From an uncultured Porphyromonadaceae bacterium (GTDB lineage: Bacteria; Bacteroidota; Bacteroidia; Bacteroidales; Muribaculaceae), in assembly GCA_947177015.1 (NCBI GenBank), contig CAMWSV010000003.1:1-35650 (forward strand): DNA of 35,650 nt. Reading direction: 5' to 3'. A model generated the notes under the pieces. It was not told the DNA's origin. It was given only the letters and a program-made list of their open reading frames with translations, and did no database searches. Both the position numbers and the translations under genes were made by a program. Shown here one piece after another: positions 23,560-35,526 of the stretch (its first letter is position 1; every line of letters begins with the position of its first letter).

Positions 23560-24963
23560 CTAAGATTCCATCTGCCGCCACATTCTGTAGAGGCGCGATT
23601 CGAGGAGCGGCACGGGTTCGTCGCTATCAAGTTGCGCCACAAATACCTTCTCGGGCTCTATATGCACCGAGAATGAGCCATCCTTCCCTTTACTAACGTT
23701 ATAGTCTTCCGGATTATAGAGCGCCTGCAGATTCTTCAGCGCGCTCCTGAGCCGGCTGAACATGGGACGGCGTATCTCGGGCACCGTCAGATCCGGTGCC
23801 GCTCCCTTTTCGCCGCCAAATAGTTCGTAGATCGCCGCATAGCGCTTCTGAAGGCGCTGCATCCTGACCTTAAACTTATCCAGTGCGGCCGCCGATCGGG
23901 GAGCATTGAAATTGATGCCATCCTTGCCTTGACAGAGAAGAAGGGCATACAGCGCACGCTCACGGCGGTGAAGTCCCTGCGCCTTGGCGTCGATATCAGG
24001 AAAGAACACTTCCTCCTTATATGGATTCAGATGGATGGCACTGCGTATATTGCGGCGGATAAGAAATATATCGAGCAACTGCTTATAAAATCCGTGAAAG
24101 TGGAAACGGTTGCCACTCTCATCTGCCGTGCTCACCATAAAGGAGTCACTGCTGAGTATGCTCGTGAAGCGGTCGATAAAACTCTGCACCGTGAGGTCTA
24201 TATCCTCGTCTACCTCTATCTTCAGATAATTGGCGTATGGATCATCGCCCACATAACTATTACCTATCTTTATCAGCAGCGAGGGAGTGGTGTTGCGCAA
24301 TTCGGTGATACCGCACTTGTTGCAGAGGAGATCTTTGCAGAAATCTCCCGTAGTGATCTTCATAAGTGAGCGGCGTGTATTGTCGAGCCCTTCATCACTC
24401 ATGGATGGAGCCAGAAATGAGAGGATATCCTTGAAGAGCACTTCATCCGTGTGGCGATAATGATCTATCACCTTCGGGATATAGAGGAAGTGAAAGCCCG
24501 CCAGTCGGAATTCCTTGAAAATCGACCGGTAGTGAGTACGTATGGCGGCGTTAGCGGCGGCGTCATATTCATCCTCCACATAGAGGGCGGTGGCGTTATT
24601 GATATTGAAATTGGCACGCGGCATCGAGAGCACCTCCGCCTCAAATTCAGAATCGGAATCAAGCACGAGCATCAACGCAATCATCAGCAACGCCTCGGAA
24701 TGGGCACAGAAGCCGTCGCTCACCGTCATCGACCTGCAATCCTGCAGAAGATCTTTCTTGAGTCCCGACACTCCCGACTCGCAAATCAATTCCAAAGCCC
24801 GGGCAAATGATATTTCCCGCGCCTTGACCCTCACTTCGCGGTCAATATCATATTTCTCACATAGACTGCGCCAACATTCCATCTCGCCGGTATTGATTAT
24901 CCTGTCGGCTTTGATAAGATCGGCGAAAATCCGGGCTATCGCTACTTTATGGGTCTGAAGCAT
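23560..24963 (-). CDS. TerB-like N-terminal domain protein of unknown function (467 aa)
   Basis: Helical N-terminus IARIFADLIKADRIINTGEMECWRSLCEKYDI...MTVSDGFCAHSEALLMIALML reads like a TerB-type module. The remainder is unassigned. Confidence 0.6.
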   Translation of the reverse strand: MLQTHKVAIARIFADLIKADRIINTGEMECWRSLCEKYDIDREVRVKAREISFARALELICESGVSGLKKDLLQDCRSMTVSDGFCAHSEALLMIALMLVLDSDSEFEAEVLSMPRANFNINNATALYVEDEYDAAANAAIRTHYRSIFKEFRLAGFHFLYIPKVIDHYRHTDEVLFKDILSFLAPSMSDEGLDNTRRSLMKITTGDFCKDLLCNKCGITELRNTTPSLLIKIGNSYVGDDPYANYLKIEVDEDIDLTVQSFIDRFTSILSSDSFMVSTADESGNRFHFHGFYKQLLDIFLIRRNIRSAIHLNPYKEEVFFPDIDAKAQGLHRRERALYALLLCQGKDGINFNAPRSAAALDKFKVRMQRLQKRYAAIYELFGGEKGAAPDLTVPEIRRPMFSRLRSALKNLQALYNPEDYNVSKGKDGSFSVHIEPEKVFVAQLDSDEPVPLLESRLYRMWRQMES

Positions 24964-25077: not shown

Positions 25078-25902
25078 TCACTTCAAATTCGAGATCACAT
25101 TATAGCAGAACCAACTGTCGAGACCTTCAAAAAACATCGGTTTCTCCCTCGCGCCTTCCTTCTGCACGTGCAATCCGTTGGAATAGGCATCCAAGGCGAT
25201 AATCTTAGAGAAGGGTATCTTGAGTGCCTTTTCTGGTGAGTGGAAATAGAGGTGCCGGTCGGTGAGACACACACTGCCGGTGCCCACGCGGTCCATGTAG
25301 GTGGTCTCTACGGGAGTGCCGCGGAATCCTCCGGTGCGGTAATATACTCCGCGGCATACTCGGAAACTCATGCCACGACTGCGCCCCACCATCTCGCGAC
25401 GCACCTTCTGCATCTGCAGGGTCACATTGCGGAAGAGCCATATCAGATTCTCATTCTTGGCGAGCAAAAAGGGGAAATTGCCGCTGATTGTGATGCACGG
25501 TGCCGGCACTCTTCCCTGCAATATCTCCTGCAGCACTTTCGATTGCACCACCCTTTCCAATGAGCGGTTTGAGTTGAGCGTCTGCTGCGGGAGTCCGGTA
25601 AATTGCACGAAGCGGGCTACGGCGCGTTCCTCGTCGGGCTGAATTATGCCATCGTCGAGATAGCGCGTTATGGCGCTGTCGAGTGCCGAGCAGTATAGAC
25701 TGCCGCACTCTTCGGGGGTGACATACGAATCCCGGCAGATGGCGGCAAGTTCATCCCGATGCAGATAGAAATCCTCTTTAGTGCGGAAGCACTCCGCCAA
25801 TATATCCCCGATCCGCATCAGAGCGGCAGCGTGCCGCTCTTCGCACCCGGCGTGTTTACTACGGAAAAATCCCGCATCCTCTCCGCAATATTTGCACTTC
25901 AT
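25078..25902 (-). CDS. Zinc-finger plus PH/GRAM-like domain protein of unknown function (274 aa)
   Basis: N-terminal MKCKYCGEDAGFFRSKHAGC (Cys cluster). C-terminal GSVCLTDRHLYFHSPEKALKIPFSKIIALDAYSNGLHVQK resembles bacterial PH/GRAM strands. Confidence 0.55.
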   Translation of the reverse strand: MKCKYCGEDAGFFRSKHAGCEERHAAALMRIGDILAECFRTKEDFYLHRDELAAICRDSYVTPEECGSLYCSALDSAITRYLDDGIIQPDEERAVARFVQFTGLPQQTLNSNRSLERVVQSKVLQEILQGRVPAPCITISGNFPFLLAKNENLIWLFRNVTLQMQKVRREMVGRSRGMSFRVCRGVYYRTGGFRGTPVETTYMDRVGTGSVCLTDRHLYFHSPEKALKIPFSKIIALDAYSNGLHVQKEGAREKPMFFEGLDSWFCYNVISNLK

Positions 25903-25976
25903 CTCTATCTTTAAATTTGAAGATTATAAAATATATCGAAAATCTGCCTGATAGCAAACCTCTGCAACTCTGAATT

Positions 25977-27458
25977 TTAATTATTTACCAGTTGCACCAC
26001 AATCAGTCTGCCCCCATCCTCGCCCGAGAGCAGAATCTTGCGTCCCTCGGTGAGTTCGACAAATTCTCCCACCTTGATCTGTTTTTTTTCAGATTCGGTG
26101 ACATCCCACATATCCGGCAGGCGGCGATTGATGAGAATCCACTTACCATTATGGAAGTGGAAGTCTCCCACGGGCTTCTTATCTTCGGGGCGGGTGCGTT
26201 CGTTGGGAGTGATGAATCGGTTGACGTGCCACATATAGAGTGATTGCTTATCGTAGACCATCAGTCGGTAATTCTCCGGCAGGAACTTACCCTTCGAGGG
26301 GGAGTAATATAGATTGAGCACCGGGAGTTGCCCCTTATATTCAGTGCCGCAGAAGGGACATTTCGGTTTGGTAGTGTTGTCAAACACAAACCAATGCGCC
26401 TCGCAGTCGGGATTCCTACAGGGTTGCATAAGGTCGGTCGTCTTCACCAGGGCGTTCTCCCACTCATCAGCCGTAGGGCGCTTCATGGGGTCGTGGAGTC
26501 CGTCGATAAACGCGCGGTCAAAGAGTTCTCTGAGATATGGACCGCAGATGGTGTAAGGGCGCTTATTCACATCCCCCTGCGGTAATTCCGAGGGTGCCAT
26601 ATTCTTCAGGTTCGGACGATTGCTCTTATCCGTGGGATGCTCCACGAAGAGAGCCTTCTCTCCCATGGAGAGTTCCTCATCGCGGGCTGCATCCAGATCG
26701 TTGACCTTGCCGCCGCGCAGCGGGTGGCGATTGAGCAGATACATATATATCAGCACGGCAAGGGCATGGCGGTCGGTCTGTATGCTCGGTAATTTCTTGG
26801 CAGCGTCTCCCATTTTGAGCGCGCGAGTCTGCAGCACCTCGGGCGCTATGAAATCGGGCGTGCCCACCACGTCGGGCGGATACTTACCGGGCACCACGAG
26901 TCCGTCGCAGTCAATCACGGCTGCCTTACCCGTCTCAGGGTCTACCAATACGTTCTTATATGAAAGGTCAGAGTGTGCCAGTCCCGCCGCATGAAGCCGT
27001 CGCACGGCACGCGCTATCTGCAGGCAGAGATGATAGTGGCTCAGCCATGTACCCTTCTGCGCCGGGGTGAGGAATTTATTGCGCAACTTGGCGGAGGCAA
27101 ACCATTTGCCCTCCTTCTCTTTCCCCTTGAACATACCGTCTTTGAAGAAGAATTGCTTCTGATACGCCGGGCACACGATACCCAATTTGCCGTTCCACTC
27201 CACAAGTTTCGTGGGCCAGCAGAAGAGATTCTCCCAGTAGTCGCCTCCGATCTGCCCGAAAATCTTCTCGCGGTATTTTCCCACGATATTCTGCAGGCGG
27301 TCTTTGGCATTGGCATCCTGCGGCTGACGGAAGAAGCCAACTACATAATCCTTCTTCGGACTGAAGTAAACATCCTTCATGGCTCCGCTACCAATGATTT
27401 CGTCTACGAATTCTACGGTAGACCCGTCGGTCGCTGTCAGTTTTATAGTCTTTGCCAT
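25977..27458 (-). CDS. Ser/Thr protein kinase-like protein with zinc-ribbon and extra C-terminal domain (493 aa)
   Basis: IIGSGAMKDVYFSPKKD, LAHSDLSYKNVLVDPETGKAAVIDCDG (HxDxxxxN and DxDG), GTPDFIAPEV; then CRNPDCEAHWFVFDNTTKPKCPFCG zinc ribbon. Confidence 0.85.
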   Translation of the reverse strand: MAKTIKLTATDGSTVEFVDEIIGSGAMKDVYFSPKKDYVVGFFRQPQDANAKDRLQNIVGKYREKIFGQIGGDYWENLFCWPTKLVEWNGKLGIVCPAYQKQFFFKDGMFKGKEKEGKWFASAKLRNKFLTPAQKGTWLSHYHLCLQIARAVRRLHAAGLAHSDLSYKNVLVDPETGKAAVIDCDGLVVPGKYPPDVVGTPDFIAPEVLQTRALKMGDAAKKLPSIQTDRHALAVLIYMYLLNRHPLRGGKVNDLDAARDEELSMGEKALFVEHPTDKSNRPNLKNMAPSELPQGDVNKRPYTICGPYLRELFDRAFIDGLHDPMKRPTADEWENALVKTTDLMQPCRNPDCEAHWFVFDNTTKPKCPFCGTEYKGQLPVLNLYYSPSKGKFLPENYRLMVYDKQSLYMWHVNRFITPNERTRPEDKKPVGDFHFHNGKWILINRRLPDMWDVTESEKKQIKVGEFVELTEGRKILLSGEDGGRLIVVQLVNN

Positions 27459-27523
27459 CTATGAGCAAGTTTATATATTGATATTATCAAATAAAATAAG
27501 TGGTCCTGATTCCGGACTTATTT

Positions 27524-28966
27524 TTAATATAGAATTGCTATCGTGCGGTCGTCATGATTGCCGGGGCTCCAGAAATCGAGCCAACCGAGGAGTTGATCTT
27601 TCGCCGCTTCGTTATCGTCGGTGAGGTCTACCCCGCCGATCTCGTCTGCCGGGAATCCCGCACGCAGATTGTGGTAAAATTCCTCCCATTTGGCGTAAGA
27701 ATTCAGGTTCTTGTCGGTCTCAAACATAGGGTCGGAGACTCCGTCGCTCATCAGGAAGAGTGCCGTGAAGTCGGGCACGATAGTCATTCTCAATCGATTA
27801 TACACATCTGAAGTGCGGAATATAGCGGGCATCGTCAGGAAGCGGGTCTGACCCGAGAACTCTCCCTCGTCGGGAACACCGAGCAGTTTGGCAGTCTTGG
27901 TGGTCTCATCGTAGAGGCACATTGCGCCGTCGCCCACCCAGAATGATGCGATAAACCATCCGAATTCAAATTTCTTGCATATCGCAAACATCAGTGTGGT
28001 AGCGAAGTCTTTGGGTTGCAACCCCTCCTGGGCGGCGGCAATCTCGTTGATCTTGTCGTGGGCTTTCTTAGCGCCTTTGAGCAGTATGTCGTGAATGTTG
28101 CGTGTCAGAGCCGCACGCTTTTCCTGATTATCCCTATCCTCCACATAGTCACGGAGTGTATTTTCGAATTCCTTATTATCGAGAAGCATGGCCTTGCAAT
28201 GCTCGGTGACTGTGTTGCAAGCCACCTCCGAACCCTTGCGCGAATACCTGGCGCTCCCGGCTCCGTCTGCCACTGCCATGATATACCAGTCGGAATCATC
28301 GCAATGATAAAGACTGAAGTGGTCGTCGCGTGCCTTACCTTCCTGGGCATGACTGCGTCCGCGCTGGCTGGCGGCTATCATATCCTTGCGTGGCTTGCCT
28401 TCGGCGCCTGCCTCTACCTTTATGTATTCCGTGGCACTATCGGGTTTGTAATATGGGATATTTTCGTCAGTAGGGATATTCTTCCACAAGTCTCGCGGAT
28501 TGGGGTTGAATGCCACGGGGATGGCAAGTTGCGAGCAGGGTTCCCCCTCCACAGTGGCATATCGCAGCGTGAGGGTGTAATCGCCTGATTTCAGGGGGTG
28601 ACCGCTGAGGGTGCATCTGCCGTCGGATTCCACCTTCAGGGTGAGTCCGAGTTCCTCGGCTCCGTCAAGTGTGATATCCGAAATTTTATCTACGGGGAGA
28701 TCGAAGGATACCTTATATTCCTTCTTCACCGTGCCGTTGGGGAATCGGATTCCGCGCTGACGCACTTCGTTTTCTATTACGATTCGTTGATTCATACGTT
28801 CTTCTTTGAATTGGCTCCATAATGTGCCTACTGCCCAGTCGAGAAAGCGTTCTTTCTCTCCGCGCGCCATTCCGGCGCTCTGCATGGCATTTTCGAGGAT
28901 CTCCGCTGCATCGTGCAACTTCGATGCCGCGTTCCGGCGTGCTATGTGTCGTTGCTCTCTATTCAT
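27524..28966 (-). CDS. PP2C-family protein phosphatase with N-terminal helical and Ig-like regions (480 aa)
   Basis: ARDDHFSLYHCDDSDWYIMAVADGAGSARYSRKGSEVACNTV, ATTLMFAI, LFLMSDGVSDPMF, HDDRTIAILY are PP2C motifs. Confidence 0.88.
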   Translation of the reverse strand: MNREQRHIARRNAASKLHDAAEILENAMQSAGMARGEKERFLDWAVGTLWSQFKEERMNQRIVIENEVRQRGIRFPNGTVKKEYKVSFDLPVDKISDITLDGAEELGLTLKVESDGRCTLSGHPLKSGDYTLTLRYATVEGEPCSQLAIPVAFNPNPRDLWKNIPTDENIPYYKPDSATEYIKVEAGAEGKPRKDMIAASQRGRSHAQEGKARDDHFSLYHCDDSDWYIMAVADGAGSARYSRKGSEVACNTVTEHCKAMLLDNKEFENTLRDYVEDRDNQEKRAALTRNIHDILLKGAKKAHDKINEIAAAQEGLQPKDFATTLMFAICKKFEFGWFIASFWVGDGAMCLYDETTKTAKLLGVPDEGEFSGQTRFLTMPAIFRTSDVYNRLRMTIVPDFTALFLMSDGVSDPMFETDKNLNSYAKWEEFYHNLRAGFPADEIGGVDLTDDNEAAKDQLLGWLDFWSPGNHDDRTIAILY

Positions 28967-28973
28967 ATATATC

Positions 28974-30026
28974 TTAACCTAATCCACGTGATAAATCGAA
29001 ACCATCGCCGTCGGCGCGTCCGAGTGTACCCTCCATGCCGCACCACGGACATTTATTCACCCCCTCGGGCGATACACAGAAGAGTTTGCCGCACTCACAC
29101 ATCACGGCTCCTATCTGATTGCCGCAGCAGGGACATGAGGGGACTCCGCGGAGTTCAGTGCTGTGAATCTTCACCTGCTCCCCTGCCGACATCGCGGCGT
29201 ATTCAGCCGAGTCTATAGGATAGGCTCCCACCAGGCGGAATCCTGAGCGACCTATAGTTTCGAGCAGTTCACCCTTATGGTTGCAACGCGAATATTTTAT
29301 CAGATAGTCGCGTCCGGTATTCTGGCATCGTGCCTGCAGCACTGCGAAATTCTCGTCGGGGGCAGCCGCTGCCGCCGGGTACTCCCGGACATCCACCTTC
29401 TCAAGATTTATACCGGATGTGGGTGCGAGTTTGATATCGTCGGAATATTGCTCGCTCACCGACATACTCGTGGTCTGAATCGAAGCGGTGACCCACTTGA
29501 AGAATTTGCTGAATGATTCTGCATCAGTCTCCTTAAGCAGCAGGATTTCATCAGTGATCTGCGCTAATGTGAGCACATTCACGTTGTCGCCGATGGAGAT
29601 AGCCACAAGGTTGCAGTGGCTGCGGTATTTCTCATTCCAGCGGCGGAAGGCGGCTGCATAATCATCCGTGGGGTTACCGTCGGTAAAGAGGAATATGATC
29701 GGTTTCCAGTCCCCCTTGGTGTCGAGAGTGGTCTTTTGGATATTCCTGTCCATATCATCCATGAGGGCTTCCAGCCCCTTGCCGAGCGAGGTGCCTCCGC
29801 CGATGGGGAATATCGGAGGATAGAACTTATATAGTTCGGTGAGCGGCGAGAGCACTTTAGCCTTGCCGGCGAAGGCGATGATCGACACGAAGACAGTCTC
29901 CAAAGCGTAGGGATCCACGCGGAGTGTCTGTATGATGGTGCGCATTCCGCTCTGCACCTGCTCGATGGGTTCCCCCACCATTGATTCTGAAACGTCTACA
30001 AGGAAGTAAATCGGTAGTCTACGCAT
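28974..30026 (-). CDS. TerY-like VWA domain protein with C-terminal zinc ribbon (350 aa)
   Basis: RRLPIYFLVDVSESMVGEPIEQVQSGM (MIDAS DxSxS), FLFTDGNPTDD; C-terminal CPCCGNQIGAVMCECGKLFCVSPEGVNKCPWCG. Confidence 0.87.
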   Translation of the reverse strand: MRRLPIYFLVDVSESMVGEPIEQVQSGMRTIIQTLRVDPYALETVFVSIIAFAGKAKVLSPLTELYKFYPPIFPIGGGTSLGKGLEALMDDMDRNIQKTTLDTKGDWKPIIFLFTDGNPTDDYAAAFRRWNEKYRSHCNLVAISIGDNVNVLTLAQITDEILLLKETDAESFSKFFKWVTASIQTTSMSVSEQYSDDIKLAPTSGINLEKVDVREYPAAAAAPDENFAVLQARCQNTGRDYLIKYSRCNHKGELLETIGRSGFRLVGAYPIDSAEYAAMSAGEQVKIHSTELRGVPSCPCCGNQIGAVMCECGKLFCVSPEGVNKCPWCGMEGTLGRADGDGFDLSRGLG

Positions 30027-30040
30027 ATTCTGTTGTTGCT

Positions 30041-31918
30041 TTAATTTTTAGGGAGGTAACGGTTGTCGGTAGCCAACTGCCGGCGAGGAGAGCGGATCAC
30101 GTCGGTGTATATCTCGAAGATAGCGTTAAGATTGTAGCGGCAATCTTCTGATGTAGGCGATTTGCTCCTCATCATTTCGAGCATATCTTCGTAGCGATCG
30201 GTGACGTAACTCCCGTTTATGAGGTCGATCACCTTTAGCAGTTCGGCGAGCGCGAGGTCAATTCTGCCCAAGGCGAACACTGATTTGTAACTTTCGAGCG
30301 TATGGCATAGAAAGTCGCGCATTGAGTCGTTATGCTCGTTGCTCAGGACGAAACTTATGAAATCGTCGCATCTGGGGTTTGACACTGCGCCGGATGGCGC
30401 AGATTCCGATGATGGCTTGCCGGGGTTGGAAGCACCGCTGTTGAAGAGGCGGATAGTGTTGAGGAAGAGGAATATGGAATTATCCGAAATGATGTCGCTG
30501 TAACTGATATTGTCTGTGAGATACAGTCCGCTCAAAGACTTCACACGGCTCAGCGCCACGTATAGTTGACCGGGGGCGAAGATATGGCTGTTGAGGTCGA
30601 GAATCACCTTGTCGTAGGTCTGACCCTGCGATTTATGGATGGTGAAGGCATACGCGGGCTTGATGGGGTATTGCGTGGTGCGCTGTATGTATGGCTGCAG
30701 GCGTATTATCTTGTGGCTCTTGGCATCATACTCGAAGTCGAAACGATCTGTGATCTTCTGCCGGTAGCCGTATTTGCCGTCGGGGGGCGGACACTCCACT
30801 ATAGCGCCCGAGTCGAGGGCTATGGTGAATGTGGAGCCGTCGAAACTCCGGATTGTGCCGCGTTCGCCATTGGAATAATATCTTTTGTAGTTCACTTTTG
30901 CACTCTTGGTGAGCATCACCCTTGCTCCGGGCTTGAAACTGAGCACCCCTTCGCATTGCGAGGGTATCACGATAGGTTCGATATCCTCCTTGCAGGGGAG
31001 TTGGTTGTGACTCACCTCCACATAGCCGCTCTTATCCTTGAGCCTGATCTTATACTCGGCTTCTATCTGCTCCACGTCGCCGGGGAGGGCATCGAGTTTC
31101 TCGGTGTTTATGTGGCTCACCTCTTCGTTGGATGAGGCGATATACACGGCATCATCGGGCAGATTGCGGGTGACTCTTGTGTTGAGCGCCTCGATGAGTT
31201 CCACCTTGCGTTCCGGCGAGAGCGGCTGCCGGAAAGCGTCGAGGAGTTTTACGAATTCGGGATCGTTCTGCTGGCGATAGGAGGTGGTGAGTTCGAAGAG
31301 TTTTATCTTGTCGGGATTATTCTTGATGATATGACTGTCAAAGAAATAGATGCCGCCGTATTCGTTGAGCAGATAGTTATGGATGGCTTCATCGCTCACC
31401 ACCGGCGGGAGTTGGAAGAGGTCGCCGACCACAACTACAGGGATGCCGCCGAAGGGTTCGTCGTTACCTTTGGCACGCTTGCACAACTGATGCATCATCT
31501 CGAAGGTGTCTGCACGCACCATCGAGATCTCATCTATCACAATCATCGTCACGGCTCCCAACTCAAACCCCATATTGCTCACCTTGGCGGGTGTGATGTT
31601 GCCGGTGTCCTGAATCCCTTCGTCAAGCCCGTCGAATCCGCGCCAGAAGAAGGAGTGGATGGTGCGTCCGCGCTTATAGAGCCCGGCGGCGAGATTGGTG
31701 GGGGCGAGCACCTGGCATCCACGGTCGGAAGCCTCAAGTTGCTTGATCAGATATGTCTTGCCGCAGCCTGCCTTGCCGTGTATGAAGGTGATCCCCTTCG
31801 GACGCGATGCCAGATAGTCAAGCACATCCTGCCTGGTGGATGCTACGGGAGCCACAATCGGTATGTCGGTCTGTGTGGAGTCGTAATCGTTTGCCATTTT
31901 AAATGTCTTACCCGCCAT
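30041..31918 (-). CDS. Pif1/RecD-like SF1 DNA helicase (625 aa)
   Basis: FIHGKAGCGKTYLIKQL (Walker A), MIVIDEISMVRADTFEMM (Walker B), VVVVGDLFQLPPVV, AYAFTIHKSQGQTYDKVILDL, LYVALSRVKSLSGLYL. Confidence 0.9.
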   Translation of the reverse strand: MAGKTFKMANDYDSTQTDIPIVAPVASTRQDVLDYLASRPKGITFIHGKAGCGKTYLIKQLEASDRGCQVLAPTNLAAGLYKRGRTIHSFFWRGFDGLDEGIQDTGNITPAKVSNMGFELGAVTMIVIDEISMVRADTFEMMHQLCKRAKGNDEPFGGIPVVVVGDLFQLPPVVSDEAIHNYLLNEYGGIYFFDSHIIKNNPDKIKLFELTTSYRQQNDPEFVKLLDAFRQPLSPERKVELIEALNTRVTRNLPDDAVYIASSNEEVSHINTEKLDALPGDVEQIEAEYKIRLKDKSGYVEVSHNQLPCKEDIEPIVIPSQCEGVLSFKPGARVMLTKSAKVNYKRYYSNGERGTIRSFDGSTFTIALDSGAIVECPPPDGKYGYRQKITDRFDFEYDAKSHKIIRLQPYIQRTTQYPIKPAYAFTIHKSQGQTYDKVILDLNSHIFAPGQLYVALSRVKSLSGLYLTDNISYSDIISDNSIFLFLNTIRLFNSGASNPGKPSSESAPSGAVSNPRCDDFISFVLSNEHNDSMRDFLCHTLESYKSVFALGRIDLALAELLKVIDLINGSYVTDRYEDMLEMMRSKSPTSEDCRYNLNAIFEIYTDVIRSPRRQLATDNRYLPKN

Positions 31919-31982
31919 GCGCTCCGGATTTTATTTCTGCACACGGTCTTTATTCCTGACCTTGGGTTAATTTTCGGAGTTT

Positions 31983-32627
31983 TTATTTTTGAATCGGAGA
32001 ATACATATCGAATTTGCCCGGCGAAAGATACACCGTGCCGGGACCTGTCACCCTCATCATGCTCAATCCCTCGCCGCCGATAAGATTACCGAGCGACCAG
32101 TTGGATTGCATCTGCTGCTCCGTGATATTGAGCAGGGCTATGATGTGGTTTTCGTCGATCTCTATCGACTCGCCGGGACGCAGACTGATCACGATGGGTG
32201 TACCCGTAGTGTCGAGGAATACGGTAGACACACCCTGAATCTTCTGCAGAAACAGACCCATGCCACCCACCATACCGGAAATCGAGAGTTTCGTGGTGAC
32301 GTTGACCCGGTTATTGGAGCCCACATATACTCCGGAGTGGCATATCATGGTGTCGCCGTTGAGTTTGATCGGAAGCAACCCGAACCGGCTGCCGATAACT
32401 AATTTGCGAGGCACCCCCGCCACATTATAGAGCCTGATGATGAATAGGGATTCCCCCGAGAGTTTCGCGCCCAATATGCGGCGCAGCCCGGAGCCGTTAA
32501 AGGCGAGTTCCTTCTCTACTCCCGCCTCAAGATATATCACCGCGCCCTTCTCTGCATAGAAGTCCTCGCCGGGCTGGAGCGTCACCTCCAAATGCTGCAC
32601 AAATTGACCTACAAGTTTGCAATCCAT
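31983..32627 (-). CDS. AIM24 / TIGR00266-like beta-rich protein (214 aa)
   Basis: VTLQPGEDFYAEKGAVIYLEAGVE...SGLRRILGAKLSGESLFIIRLYNVAG and VFLDTTGTPIVISLRPGESIEIDENHIIAL are AIM24-like. Confidence 0.75.
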   Translation of the reverse strand: MDCKLVGQFVQHLEVTLQPGEDFYAEKGAVIYLEAGVEKELAFNGSGLRRILGAKLSGESLFIIRLYNVAGVPRKLVIGSRFGLLPIKLNGDTMICHSGVYVGSNNRVNVTTKLSISGMVGGMGLFLQKIQGVSTVFLDTTGTPIVISLRPGESIEIDENHIIALLNITEQQMQSNWSLGNLIGGEGLSMMRVTGPGTVYLSPGKFDMYSPIQK

Positions 32628-32641
32628 TCTTTCTTTTTCTC

Positions 32642-32671
32642 CTTATATCTACTTATATCTGCTTATATCTG
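32642..32671. repeat. Three tandem 10-bp repeats (CTTATATCTa/g) upstream of the AIM24-like gene
   Basis: CTTATATCTA CTTATATCTG CTTATATCTG. Confidence 0.85.
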
Positions 32672-32717
32672 CGATTAATACTCTTTTCCATGACTGACTC
32701 CTCATCGATGCATCAAT

Positions 32718-33353
32718 TCAGACAATCACATTGACCTCGGCAGGAGGTGGCGGAAGCACGAGGTTGTCAGTGGCACCGATACTGCGGTTGCCCACGCCGA
32801 TAGAGTCAGATACCCATTTGAAGAATTTCTTGAAGGCGGTGCTGTCTACCGTATCGAGCGAGTACACTTCGTCGGTGAGTTCTTTCAGCGGTTCGATCTT
32901 TGCGCTCATACCTGCCGCGCAGGCTATGATGCCGGCGAAATGACGCTTTTTAATCTCCGGAATCATCTCCTTATAGAGTTGGATATCTGAGGGCTTGCCA
33001 TCCGTCATCAGAAACAGCAGCGGCATCCAGTCACCTTTCTGGTCGGGTGTGCTCAGGCGCACCTCCGTATCAATCTGTTCGCAGAGCAGTTTCAGTGCCT
33101 GCCCCGTATGAGTGGGTCCACTCTCGGGTGTAGTGATTTCCGGCAGTTGGAGTTCGTCGAGCGGTGTGAGGGGGAGTATCTGCTTCACCTCGCGATCAAA
33201 CGTGATGATACTTATATTCACGGATTCCAATGCAAACGGATCCTGACGCAGGCTCGAAAGCATAGATTCAAGCCCCACCTTGACCGATTCTATCGGTTCG
33301 CCTCGCATCGATCCGGATGTGTCGATAAGTAGGTATACTGGGAGACGTCTCAT
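32718..33353 (-). CDS. TerY-like VWA domain protein (211 aa)
   Basis: RRLPVYLLIDTSGSMRGEPIESVKVGLESML (MIDAS DxSxS), LFLMTDGKPSD; C-terminus LPPPPAEVNVIV. Confidence 0.87.
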   Translation of the reverse strand: MRRLPVYLLIDTSGSMRGEPIESVKVGLESMLSSLRQDPFALESVNISIITFDREVKQILPLTPLDELQLPEITTPESGPTHTGQALKLLCEQIDTEVRLSTPDQKGDWMPLLFLMTDGKPSDIQLYKEMIPEIKKRHFAGIIACAAGMSAKIEPLKELTDEVYSLDTVDSTAFKKFFKWVSDSIGVGNRSIGATDNLVLPPPPAEVNVIV

Positions 33354-33376
33354 TCTTTATTACTGTATTTGTTAAG

Positions 33377-33432
33377 ATTTCCGTCTTACCCCTCCCCCGC
33401 CGTGAAGGCAGATGAGGGGGCAAGACAGAAAT
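33377..33432 (-). promoter_or_regulatory. Strong RNA hairpin between two VWA genes
   Basis: Minus-strand RNA AUUUCUGUCUUGCCCCCUC pairs with GAGGGGUAAGACGGAAAU (about 18 bp, G-U pairs plus one bulge). No U-tract follows. Confidence 0.55.
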
Positions 33433-33489
33433 TAATCTGATTCTGCATATTTTCTCATACGGAGAGGGGGATGAGTGATATGCGGGCTT

Positions 33490-34128
33490 TTATACCACGA
33501 TATTTACTTCAGGCGGGGGTGGCGGGAGTTCGCTGAGCGAAGTGGCTTCGGCACCGGTCTCCTCCACTTTCATGCTGCCCGAACTTACAGAGGCGGATAC
33601 CCACTTGAAGAATGCCTTGATTGTGGCGCTGTCGGCTGTGTCGAGCGATACCACACATTCGGTGATTTTCTTCAGAGTGTCGGTGTTGGCGCCGGCACCT
33701 GCCGCACAAGCCACCACCATGCCCCATTTGCGCTTCTTAAACTCAGCCAGACCCTTATTCAGGTCGTCGGTAGGTTCGCCGTCGGTCATGATAAATACGA
33801 GGGGTTTCCAGTCACCTTTCTGATCTACGGTGGTCTTTGTCACCTCCTGGTCAGCCTTATGTGCCAGCAGGGCGAGAGCCTCGCCGAGAGCCGTGCATCC
33901 GCTTGCCTGGATGTTGGGCTGCTGGAATGCAGAGAGTTCGGTAAGCGGAGTCACCTGCTGCGCGGTGCTGTCGAAAGTAATTATACTTAGGTAGGCGGTC
34001 TCAAGTGCGTAGGGATCCTGACGCAGGGTGGAAACCAATACCTGAACTCCATTCTTAACTGCCTCGATCGGTTCGCCATACATCGAACCCGAGCAGTCCA
34101 AAAGGAGATATACGGGGAGTCTTCTCAT
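33490..34128 (-). CDS. TerY-like VWA domain protein (212 aa), paralog of 32718-33353
   Basis: RRLPVYLLLDCSGSMYGEPIEAVKNGVQVLV (MIDAS), VFIMTDGEPTDD; C-terminus LPPPPPEVNIVV. Confidence 0.88.
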   Translation of the reverse strand: MRRLPVYLLLDCSGSMYGEPIEAVKNGVQVLVSTLRQDPYALETAYLSIITFDSTAQQVTPLTELSAFQQPNIQASGCTALGEALALLAHKADQEVTKTTVDQKGDWKPLVFIMTDGEPTDDLNKGLAEFKKRKWGMVVACAAGAGANTDTLKKITECVVSLDTADSATIKAFFKWVSASVSSGSMKVEETGAEATSLSELPPPPPEVNIVV

Positions 34129-34135
34129 CTTTTTT

Positions 34136-34188
34136 ATTGGAATTATTGGAGTGAATCTGAGTAATTGGAGGGAATTGGAAGTATTGGA
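34136..34188. repeat. Five phased ATTGGA (TCCAAT on coding strand) repeats in the leader of the VWA gene
   Basis: ATTGGA at 34136, 34145, 34164, 34174, 34183, a spacing of about 9.5 bp with one position missing. Confidence 0.8.
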
Positions 34189-34262
34189 GATCTATATATA
34201 TGTACTTTTGATTCAATACTAAAATTAGATCTCATCATTATCCAATTCACCGACGAAGGGGA

Positions 34263-34925
34263 TTAGTGAGCATAATTTGTCACAATCCGGCGGATAGTTT
34301 CGCAGAGATTGGCATCGGGATATGCGTCGCCGATTGCTGAGAATTTCCATTCGCCGTTGCGACGGTAGAGTTTGCCCATTATCAGAGCCTTCATCCCCTT
34401 ATATTTGGGTTCTGCCGCTACGTCATAGGATGCAAACACTTCCTTCACGCGTGTAGGTGTACCCTCATACATTCTGATCGAAGCGTAGGGGATCTGCGAG
34501 AAGTCTTCGCCACCGCAGTTGTTGAGGAAGAAGAAAATCTGATCTACGTTGGGACTGACGCGGTTAAGGTCTACGGTGATGATTTCGTTGTCGAGTCCGT
34601 CATCGCCTGCCTGATCGCCTTTCAGGTCGTCGCCGCTGTGATGCAACGCAAAATCCACTGAGTCTACCTTGCCTGCCGGCATGCCGTAACGCGCCAGGAA
34701 TTCGCGTTTATAGAGGGGTGAATAAATATGGTCGCAGAGATTGCCTGCTGCATCAAGCATCACGCATGAGAGGTCAAGATCCACATCCTGCACCGATTTG
34801 CCGATACCAAGAAAGCCGCTCGATACGATTGCGCCCCAGTTGCAGCCCACACAGAATTCAGTGAGTTTGGAGCCGTTATTCTTCTCAAGATTGATGCGTT
34901 GCCCTTTTTCAAGACGTATTGCCAT
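34263..34925 (-). CDS. TerD-family protein (220 aa)
   Basis: MAIRLEKGQRINLEK..., DVDLDLSCVMLDAAGNLCDHIYSPLYK, VDFALHHSGDDLKGDQAGDDGLDNEIITVDLNRVSPNVDQIFF. Confidence 0.88.
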   Translation of the reverse strand: MAIRLEKGQRINLEKNNGSKLTEFCVGCNWGAIVSSGFLGIGKSVQDVDLDLSCVMLDAAGNLCDHIYSPLYKREFLARYGMPAGKVDSVDFALHHSGDDLKGDQAGDDGLDNEIITVDLNRVSPNVDQIFFFLNNCGGEDFSQIPYASIRMYEGTPTRVKEVFASYDVAAEPKYKGMKALIMGKLYRRNGEWKFSAIGDAYPDANLCETIRRIVTNYAH

Positions 34926-34971
34926 AATTATATTATCGTTTTTTAGAGTACTGAAAATTTAGTGTTGAGTA

Positions 34972-35526
34972 TTAATTATACTTGTTGAGATATTCAGCGA
35001 GACCTGCTTTCTGTCCGGTGCCGATAGCCTCAAACTTCCATTGGCCGTTGCGCTTATAGAGTCTGCCGAATTCCACTGCTGTCTCGATCGAGAAGTCTTC
35101 ATCGAGGTCGTAGCGGAGTATCTCCTCGCCATTGTCGGCATTATAGATGCGGATGAAGGCGTTGCGTACCTGTCCGAAGTTCTGGCGGCGCTCTTCTGCC
35201 TTATGGATGGTCACCACGAATGTAATCTCCGTGGCACGCGGATCTATCTTCGAGAGGTCGATCTTGATCTGCTCGTCGTCGCCTTCGCCCTCGCCGGTGA
35301 GGTTATCGCCGGTGTGCTCCACCGCATTATCGGGCGATTTCAGATTATTGTAGAAGACGAAATATTCATCTGCGAGAATCTTCCCGTTCTCCCCCAGAAT
35401 GAACGCCGAAGCGTCAAGATCGAAGTCCTCGCCTGTGCTCGATTGATTCGTATCCCAACCCAAACCGATTGTGAACTTCGGGAGTTCTACAGCCACACGC
35501 TGACCTTTTTCCAGATTAATTGCCAT
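34972..35526 (-). CDS. TerD-family protein, canonical form (184 aa)
   Basis: MAINLEKGQRVAVELPKFTIGLGWDTNQSSTGEDFDLDASAFILGENGKI...AVEHTGDNLTGEGEGDDEQIKIDLSKIDPRATEITFVVTIH. Confidence 0.92.
   Translation of the reverse strand: MAINLEKGQRVAVELPKFTIGLGWDTNQSSTGEDFDLDASAFILGENGKILADEYFVFYNNLKSPDNAVEHTGDNLTGEGEGDDEQIKIDLSKIDPRATEITFVVTIHKAEERRQNFGQVRNAFIRIYNADNGEEILRYDLDEDFSIETAVEFGRLYKRNGQWKFEAIGTGQKAGLAEYLNKYN

Follow-up and report, generated by a model that had tools for sequence, protein, structure and literature searches.

A conserved TerD/TerY-P cluster in the window (the whole stretch of 35,650 nt that was analysed, from a gut bacterium related to Bacteroidales/Muribaculaceae) carries a Pif1-family helicase with an added, conserved helical tail, and this helicase is not a constant member of the cluster type. 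The reading we favour, and consider probable, is that of an optional Pif1 ATPase module, which would give the cluster an extra nucleic-acid-processing output from the same transcript and would be recruited through the tail bundle.

The genes of the cluster, in their order on the minus strand, are as follows:

34972..35526, minus strand: TerD (PF02342, E=1.4e-76)
34263..34925, minus strand: TerD-like protein (PF02342, E=4.7e-29)
33490..34128, minus strand: VWA 1, TerY-like (PF00092)
32718..33353, minus strand: VWA 2, TerY-like (PF00092)
31983..32627, minus strand: AIM24 protein, commonly encoded immediately upstream of the helicase (PF01987, E=1.9e-36)
30041..31918, minus strand: Pif1-family SF1B helicase with an extra C-terminal domain, 625 aa, ATG start (Pfam PIF1)
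28974..30026, minus strand: VWA + TerY_C zinc protein (VWA-Zn), a TerY-P component (PF15616, E=2.7e-39; PF00092)
27524..28966, minus strand: PP2C-type phosphatase (PP2C_2; PF13672, E=6.8e-40)
25977..27458, minus strand: Ser/Thr kinase with a C-terminal CxxC Zn-ribbon-like segment (PF00069, E=3.4e-12; CRNPDC...CPFC read in the sequence)
25078..25902, minus strand: 274-aa protein with an N-terminal CxxC motif (CKYC) and no Pfam family, a candidate helicase partner

Two TerD and two VWA genes precede AIM24, and all genes from 28974 to 35526 are on the minus strand. The VWA genes all keep DxSxS...T...D, as judged by eye, and the Zn ribbon of the kinase (CxxxxC...CxxC) was likewise seen by eye only. 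Genes for a TerY-like VWA protein, a PP2C phosphatase and a Zn-ribbon kinase adjoin one another, as in a TerY-P triad. In the Ter clusters of this genus the kinase gene is often followed on its 3' side by a gene for a 467-aa protein (window 23560-24963, minus strand) that belongs to no Pfam or NCBIfam family.

The distance from the helicase TAA to the VWA-Zn ATG is 14 nt and from the VWA-Zn TAA to the PP2C ATG 7 nt, exactly as the preliminary description gave them, and 64 nt separate the AIM24 stop from the helicase ATG. The close spacing of helicase, VWA-Zn and PP2C therefore fits one transcript, and no exact Bacteroidales-type promoter consensus (TTTG...TAnnTTTG) was found inside the cluster on its coding strand. 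Translational coupling of these three genes, which that description also suggested, may occur, but the 14-nt gap is not conserved: it is 27-39 nt in clusters of the genus and 116 nt in L044.

The helicase itself shows the following parts:

30440..31840, minus strand: Pif1 helicase core, about residues 27-493 (phmmer and Foldseek alignments stop at ~residue 490)
31754..31777, minus strand: Walker A, GKAGCGKT, residues 48-55 (G48, K49, G51, G53 and K54 invariant in 22 proteins)
31523..31534, minus strand: Walker B, DEIS, residues 129-132 (D129, E130 and S132 invariant in 22 proteins)
30545..30562, minus strand: motif VI, YVALSR, residues 453-458 (invariant in 22 aligned Pif1 proteins)
30092..30379, minus strand: five-helix bundle, family-specific, about residues 514-609 (AF2 model of the isolated tail)

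The protein had been described as Pif1/RecD-like with clear SF1 helicase motifs. The motifs are indeed all intact, including GDLFQLPP (residues 165-172) and TIHKSQGQT (residues 426-434), and their key residues are invariant in the alignment of 22 Pif1 proteins. The Pif1 half of the name holds in both sequence and fold: the protein exceeds the cut-off of Pfam PIF1 (PF05970, E=8.9e-22), solved Pif1 proteins in PDB match it with E down to 2e-57, and its AF2 model (mean pLDDT 84) fits Pif1 structures best, which fill the top ranks of Foldseek (TMt 0.83 for Thermus Pif1). The RecD half was rejected, with 44 bits against the NCBIfam RecD2 cut-off of 500 and a TMt of 0.45 to the RecD2 structure 3gpl. 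On sequence grounds an active Pif1 enzyme is well supported; it would be expected to unwind DNA, presumably with the 5'-to-3' polarity of the Pif1 family. An ordinary (housekeeping) Pif1 paralog, 34% identical to the window helicase, is also present in the genome, whose assembly is 2.04 Mb and 84% complete.

The N-terminus of several orthologs (L034, L003, L168, L035, L037, L040) is formed by a short segment of the pattern M-x-[IL]-[FIL]-D-x-[IL]-[FLY], for example MGIFDFIFGKK, which resembles an amphipathic membrane or docking tag and is absent from the window helicase. The ortholog in genome G009 has an intact frame of 603 aa, with stop codons only upstream of the frame.

About 120 aa after the last motif had been noted as having no assignable domain, and we found no curated Pfam family there. 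When this tail was modelled alone, AF2 predicted the five-helix bundle with high confidence (block-mean pLDDT mostly 92-97 across helices), preceded in the predicted model by a low-confidence linker at about residues 494-513. The bundle is conserved in 20 helicase orthologs, with an invariant N-x-I-x-E-x-Y near its end. Searches with the tail gave no Foldseek match among PDB folds at E<1 and no confident relative among PDB sequences, and in 393 genomes sampled in the order it was found in the window itself only. A HEPN nature of the tail was rejected: hhalign against 22 HEPN proteins gave 4% probability, and the Pfam HEPN hints are weak (5e-4 at best, in one of 20 orthologs; 0.22 for the window). 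A phage or plasmid origin of the helicase was also rejected, as relatives match only the core at ~30-35% and the tail was not found in viral contigs. The most likely function of this lineage-specific bundle is docking or regulation.

The core cluster runs TerD-TerD-VWA-VWA-VWA/Zn-PP2C-kinase, and the neighbourhoods were taken from fragmented MAGs with mechanically called genes. A TerY_C match is found in 40 of 111 genus genomes (full-length in 31 of them) and a helicase ortholog in 20 of 111. Of 36 clusters, 6 have the helicase in the interval between VWA2 and VWA-Zn (that of the window genome and those of G104, G022, G072, G032 and L044, the last from another family), and the other 30 have no helicase there. 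At 10 TerY_C loci sampled in further genera of the class, no Pif1 was detected within the surrounding 12-19 kb examined (0 of 10). On the core-gene tree the helicase state changes six times, at least four of which are forced by well-supported branches, with gains and losses indistinguishable on this tree; 12 changes are counted on the species-tree sample, and helicases in the junction position form no clade on the helicase tree. In G032, PP2C follows the helicase directly because the cluster lacks a VWA-Zn gene (L036/L119, 8237-11619), with no TerY_C elsewhere in this 95%-complete genome; the two are therefore separable. Many orthologs have no kinase, PP2C or VWA gene around them, and at least seven have no Ter-type gene nearby (G129, G080, G077/G119/G131, G128, L046).

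The core TerD/TerY-P cluster is old, and in most cases it has no helicase. The preliminary description had taken the helicase for the arm of the cluster that acts as effector or processes DNA, a claim that would fall if most homologous clusters lacked the helicase at this position. This is largely the case: only 6 of the 36 clusters contain it, its occurrence on the core-gene tree is scattered, and orthologs are found elsewhere too. Since most relatives carry the cluster without it, the helicase seems to be an optional addition and not an essential output.

The place of insertion is itself variable. Additional genes lie between VWA2 and VWA-Zn in 21 of 35 Ter clusters, compared with 3 of 34 for VWA1 to VWA2, 0 of 35 for VWA-Zn to PP2C and 0 of 36 for PP2C to kinase; the interval from VWA2 to VWA-Zn is the accessory slot of the cluster. 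AIM24 is its commonest content and AIM24 plus helicase the next. In unrelated operons, a different ATPase is inserted between TerY-like VWA genes in each CoCoNuT III-A subtype (PMC11090510), which the accessory slot parallels. The 274-aa protein (L035, L045, L181, L182) also occurs directly after AIM24 in G009 and G128, and a relative of 366-373 aa is found in TerY modules of a second type (G028, G069, G018).

The attachment of the helicase to Ter-type genes is non-random. A Ter-type gene lies within 1.5 kb of 14 of 26 helicase orthologs but of none of 25 housekeeping Pif1 paralogs (p=1e-5, uncorrected for shared ancestry), and the neighbour differs by genome, being AIM24, VWA1, VWA2, TerD, TerY_C or the 274-aa protein. 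Full-length TerY_C is present in 16 of 20 helicase genomes (p=9e-8, uncorrected). Co-occurrence of TerY_C and helicase was not significant in independent pairs on the rpoB tree (median p 0.5), where informative pairs are few and on average 2.4 agree versus 0.3 that disagree. A real helicase in the operon, its uncharacterised C-terminal domain and its tie to Ter-type genes are supported; its rank as the effector arm is not.

In G090 and L045 the helicase is held by a second TerY-type module. This module consists of a short stand-alone TerY_C protein (~120 aa) with its own kinase, VWA and PP2C; it was also found in G000:C104 6929-7171, G028, G069, G092, G008 and G018, and radical SAM genes sometimes accompany it (L045). 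A further two orthologs follow rows of conflict-type genes, namely HSP70 + kinase-AAA in L037 and Tubulin_2 + VWA in L043, although 190-270 nt separate them from these rows; gene sets of tubulin, HSP70 and VWA have been described as conflict systems (PMC7159879).

We therefore weighed several explanations. In one of them the kinase and the phosphatase switch the helicase, which is the effector of the TerY-P triad. The tight spacing of the cluster genes on one strand and the recurrence of the helicase beside two different TerY-type modules (G090, L045) speak for it, as do literature reports of helicases at TerY-P loci (quoted in PMC4978471). However, 30 of 36 clusters have no helicase in the slot, G032 keeps the helicase without VWA-Zn, and some orthologs have no kinase or PP2C nearby, so that we hold this explanation to be improbable; the triad mostly works without the helicase and therefore needs another output. 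A passenger, that is, a mobile or rapidly relocating repair helicase in a permissive slot without functional link to Ter genes, is somewhat less improbable but still unlikely. Its patchy occurrence with 12 changes on the species-tree sample, the varied gene contexts of the orthologs and its faster divergence (~67% identity to the same congeners to which kinase and VWA show 90-95%) speak for it, whereas the excess of Ter-type neighbours over the control paralogs (14 of 26 against 0 of 25) and the repeated adjacency to different members of one small gene set speak against it, as does G009, where the Ter genes are distributed over three separate loci but the helicase is still next to a VWA gene.

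It is also conceivable, though very improbable, that the helicase forms with AIM24 and/or the 274-aa protein a unit of its own that moves and works together, instead of belonging to the triad. AIM24-helicase pairs exist outside the triad, with a 4-nt overlap in G120 (where the pair is upstream of TerD) and G067, and the same order is also seen in G075, which like G067 has it outside the Ter cluster. The 274-aa protein accompanies the helicase in 7 of 8 genomes (Fisher p=1.6e-5) and lies directly downstream of it in G017 (L035), as does a 36% relative in L045. However, most clusters without helicase contain AIM24, and several orthologs have neither AIM24 nor the 274-aa protein as neighbour.

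For the optional module speak the Pif1 family and predicted fold, the conserved tail bundle, the patchy accessory distribution, the non-random attachment to Ter-type genes and the insertion-prone slot; against it speak the non-significant co-occurrence in independent pairs, the orthologs with no Ter-type gene nearby and the variable spacing to VWA-Zn. The helicase would have entered the variable slot between VWA2 and VWA-Zn repeatedly, or entered it and been lost again, and, when present, is probably made from the same transcript as the cluster. Its C-terminal bundle may recruit it to VWA, AIM24 or TerD partners, and it would probably serve as an extra output that, after stress or an attack by phages, unwinds or remodels DNA or R-loops. 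Kinase and phosphatase may control the helicase, and it may have a role in defence or stress. More speculatively, the tail might be a new docking domain that recruits a Pif1 helicase to TerD/VWA/AIM24 systems, making a distinct DNA-processing version of TerY-P in gut Bacteroidales, with the interval from VWA to VWA-Zn as a general plug-in site for ATPases; we regard this wider proposal as tentative and rather doubtful.

The literature already knows Pif1 helicases and TerY-P triads, as well as the presence of helicases close to TerY-P (PMC4978471, citing Anantharaman 2012). A Pif1 subfamily that carries this tail and is repeatedly attached to Ter genes, together with the counts that mark out the accessory slot, appears to be new, and no paper joining TerD with Pif1 in this sense was found in the open literature searched. 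TerY-P clusters are widespread, and the Pif1 plug-in is a concrete, testable candidate for joining signalling to DNA processing; one operon alone should not be taken to prove the core mechanism.

Compared with known systems, the window helicase shares the core, the motifs and the 2B-type beta insertion with bacterial Pif1 structures (Bacteroides 5fhg/5fhd, Thermus oshimai 7oar, Deferribacter 8bnv) but differs by the added conserved helical C-terminal bundle. Known C-terminal additions of bacterial Pif1 include the WYL domain (PMC9964779), which was not matched in the window tail. Among PADLOC models, VWA-Zn, PP2C, AIM24 and TerD had no match, the helicase had only generic RecD-like and candidate-system matches and the kinase only generic kinase matches; no single catalogued anti-phage system fits.

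TerY-P triad clusters have VWA/TerY, PP2C and a kinase with a Zn-ribbon-like end in common with the window cluster, which differs in its three VWA and two TerD genes and in the AIM24 gene and optional Pif1 helicase that its gene row includes. Anantharaman et al. 2012, as cited in PMC11090510 and PMC4978471, reported that genes for helicases and further DNA-processing proteins lie near TerY-P loci. CoCoNuT systems of type II and III-A (PMC11090510) likewise combine TerY-P with an SF1 helicase and place ATPase cassettes between TerY-like VWA genes. McrB, McrC (coiled coils), CnuH/CnuE or a HEPN gene were not found by Pfam among the window proteins scanned (25078-35526), and the helicase of CoCoNuT is UPF1-like (PMC11090510), whereas that of the window is a Pif1.
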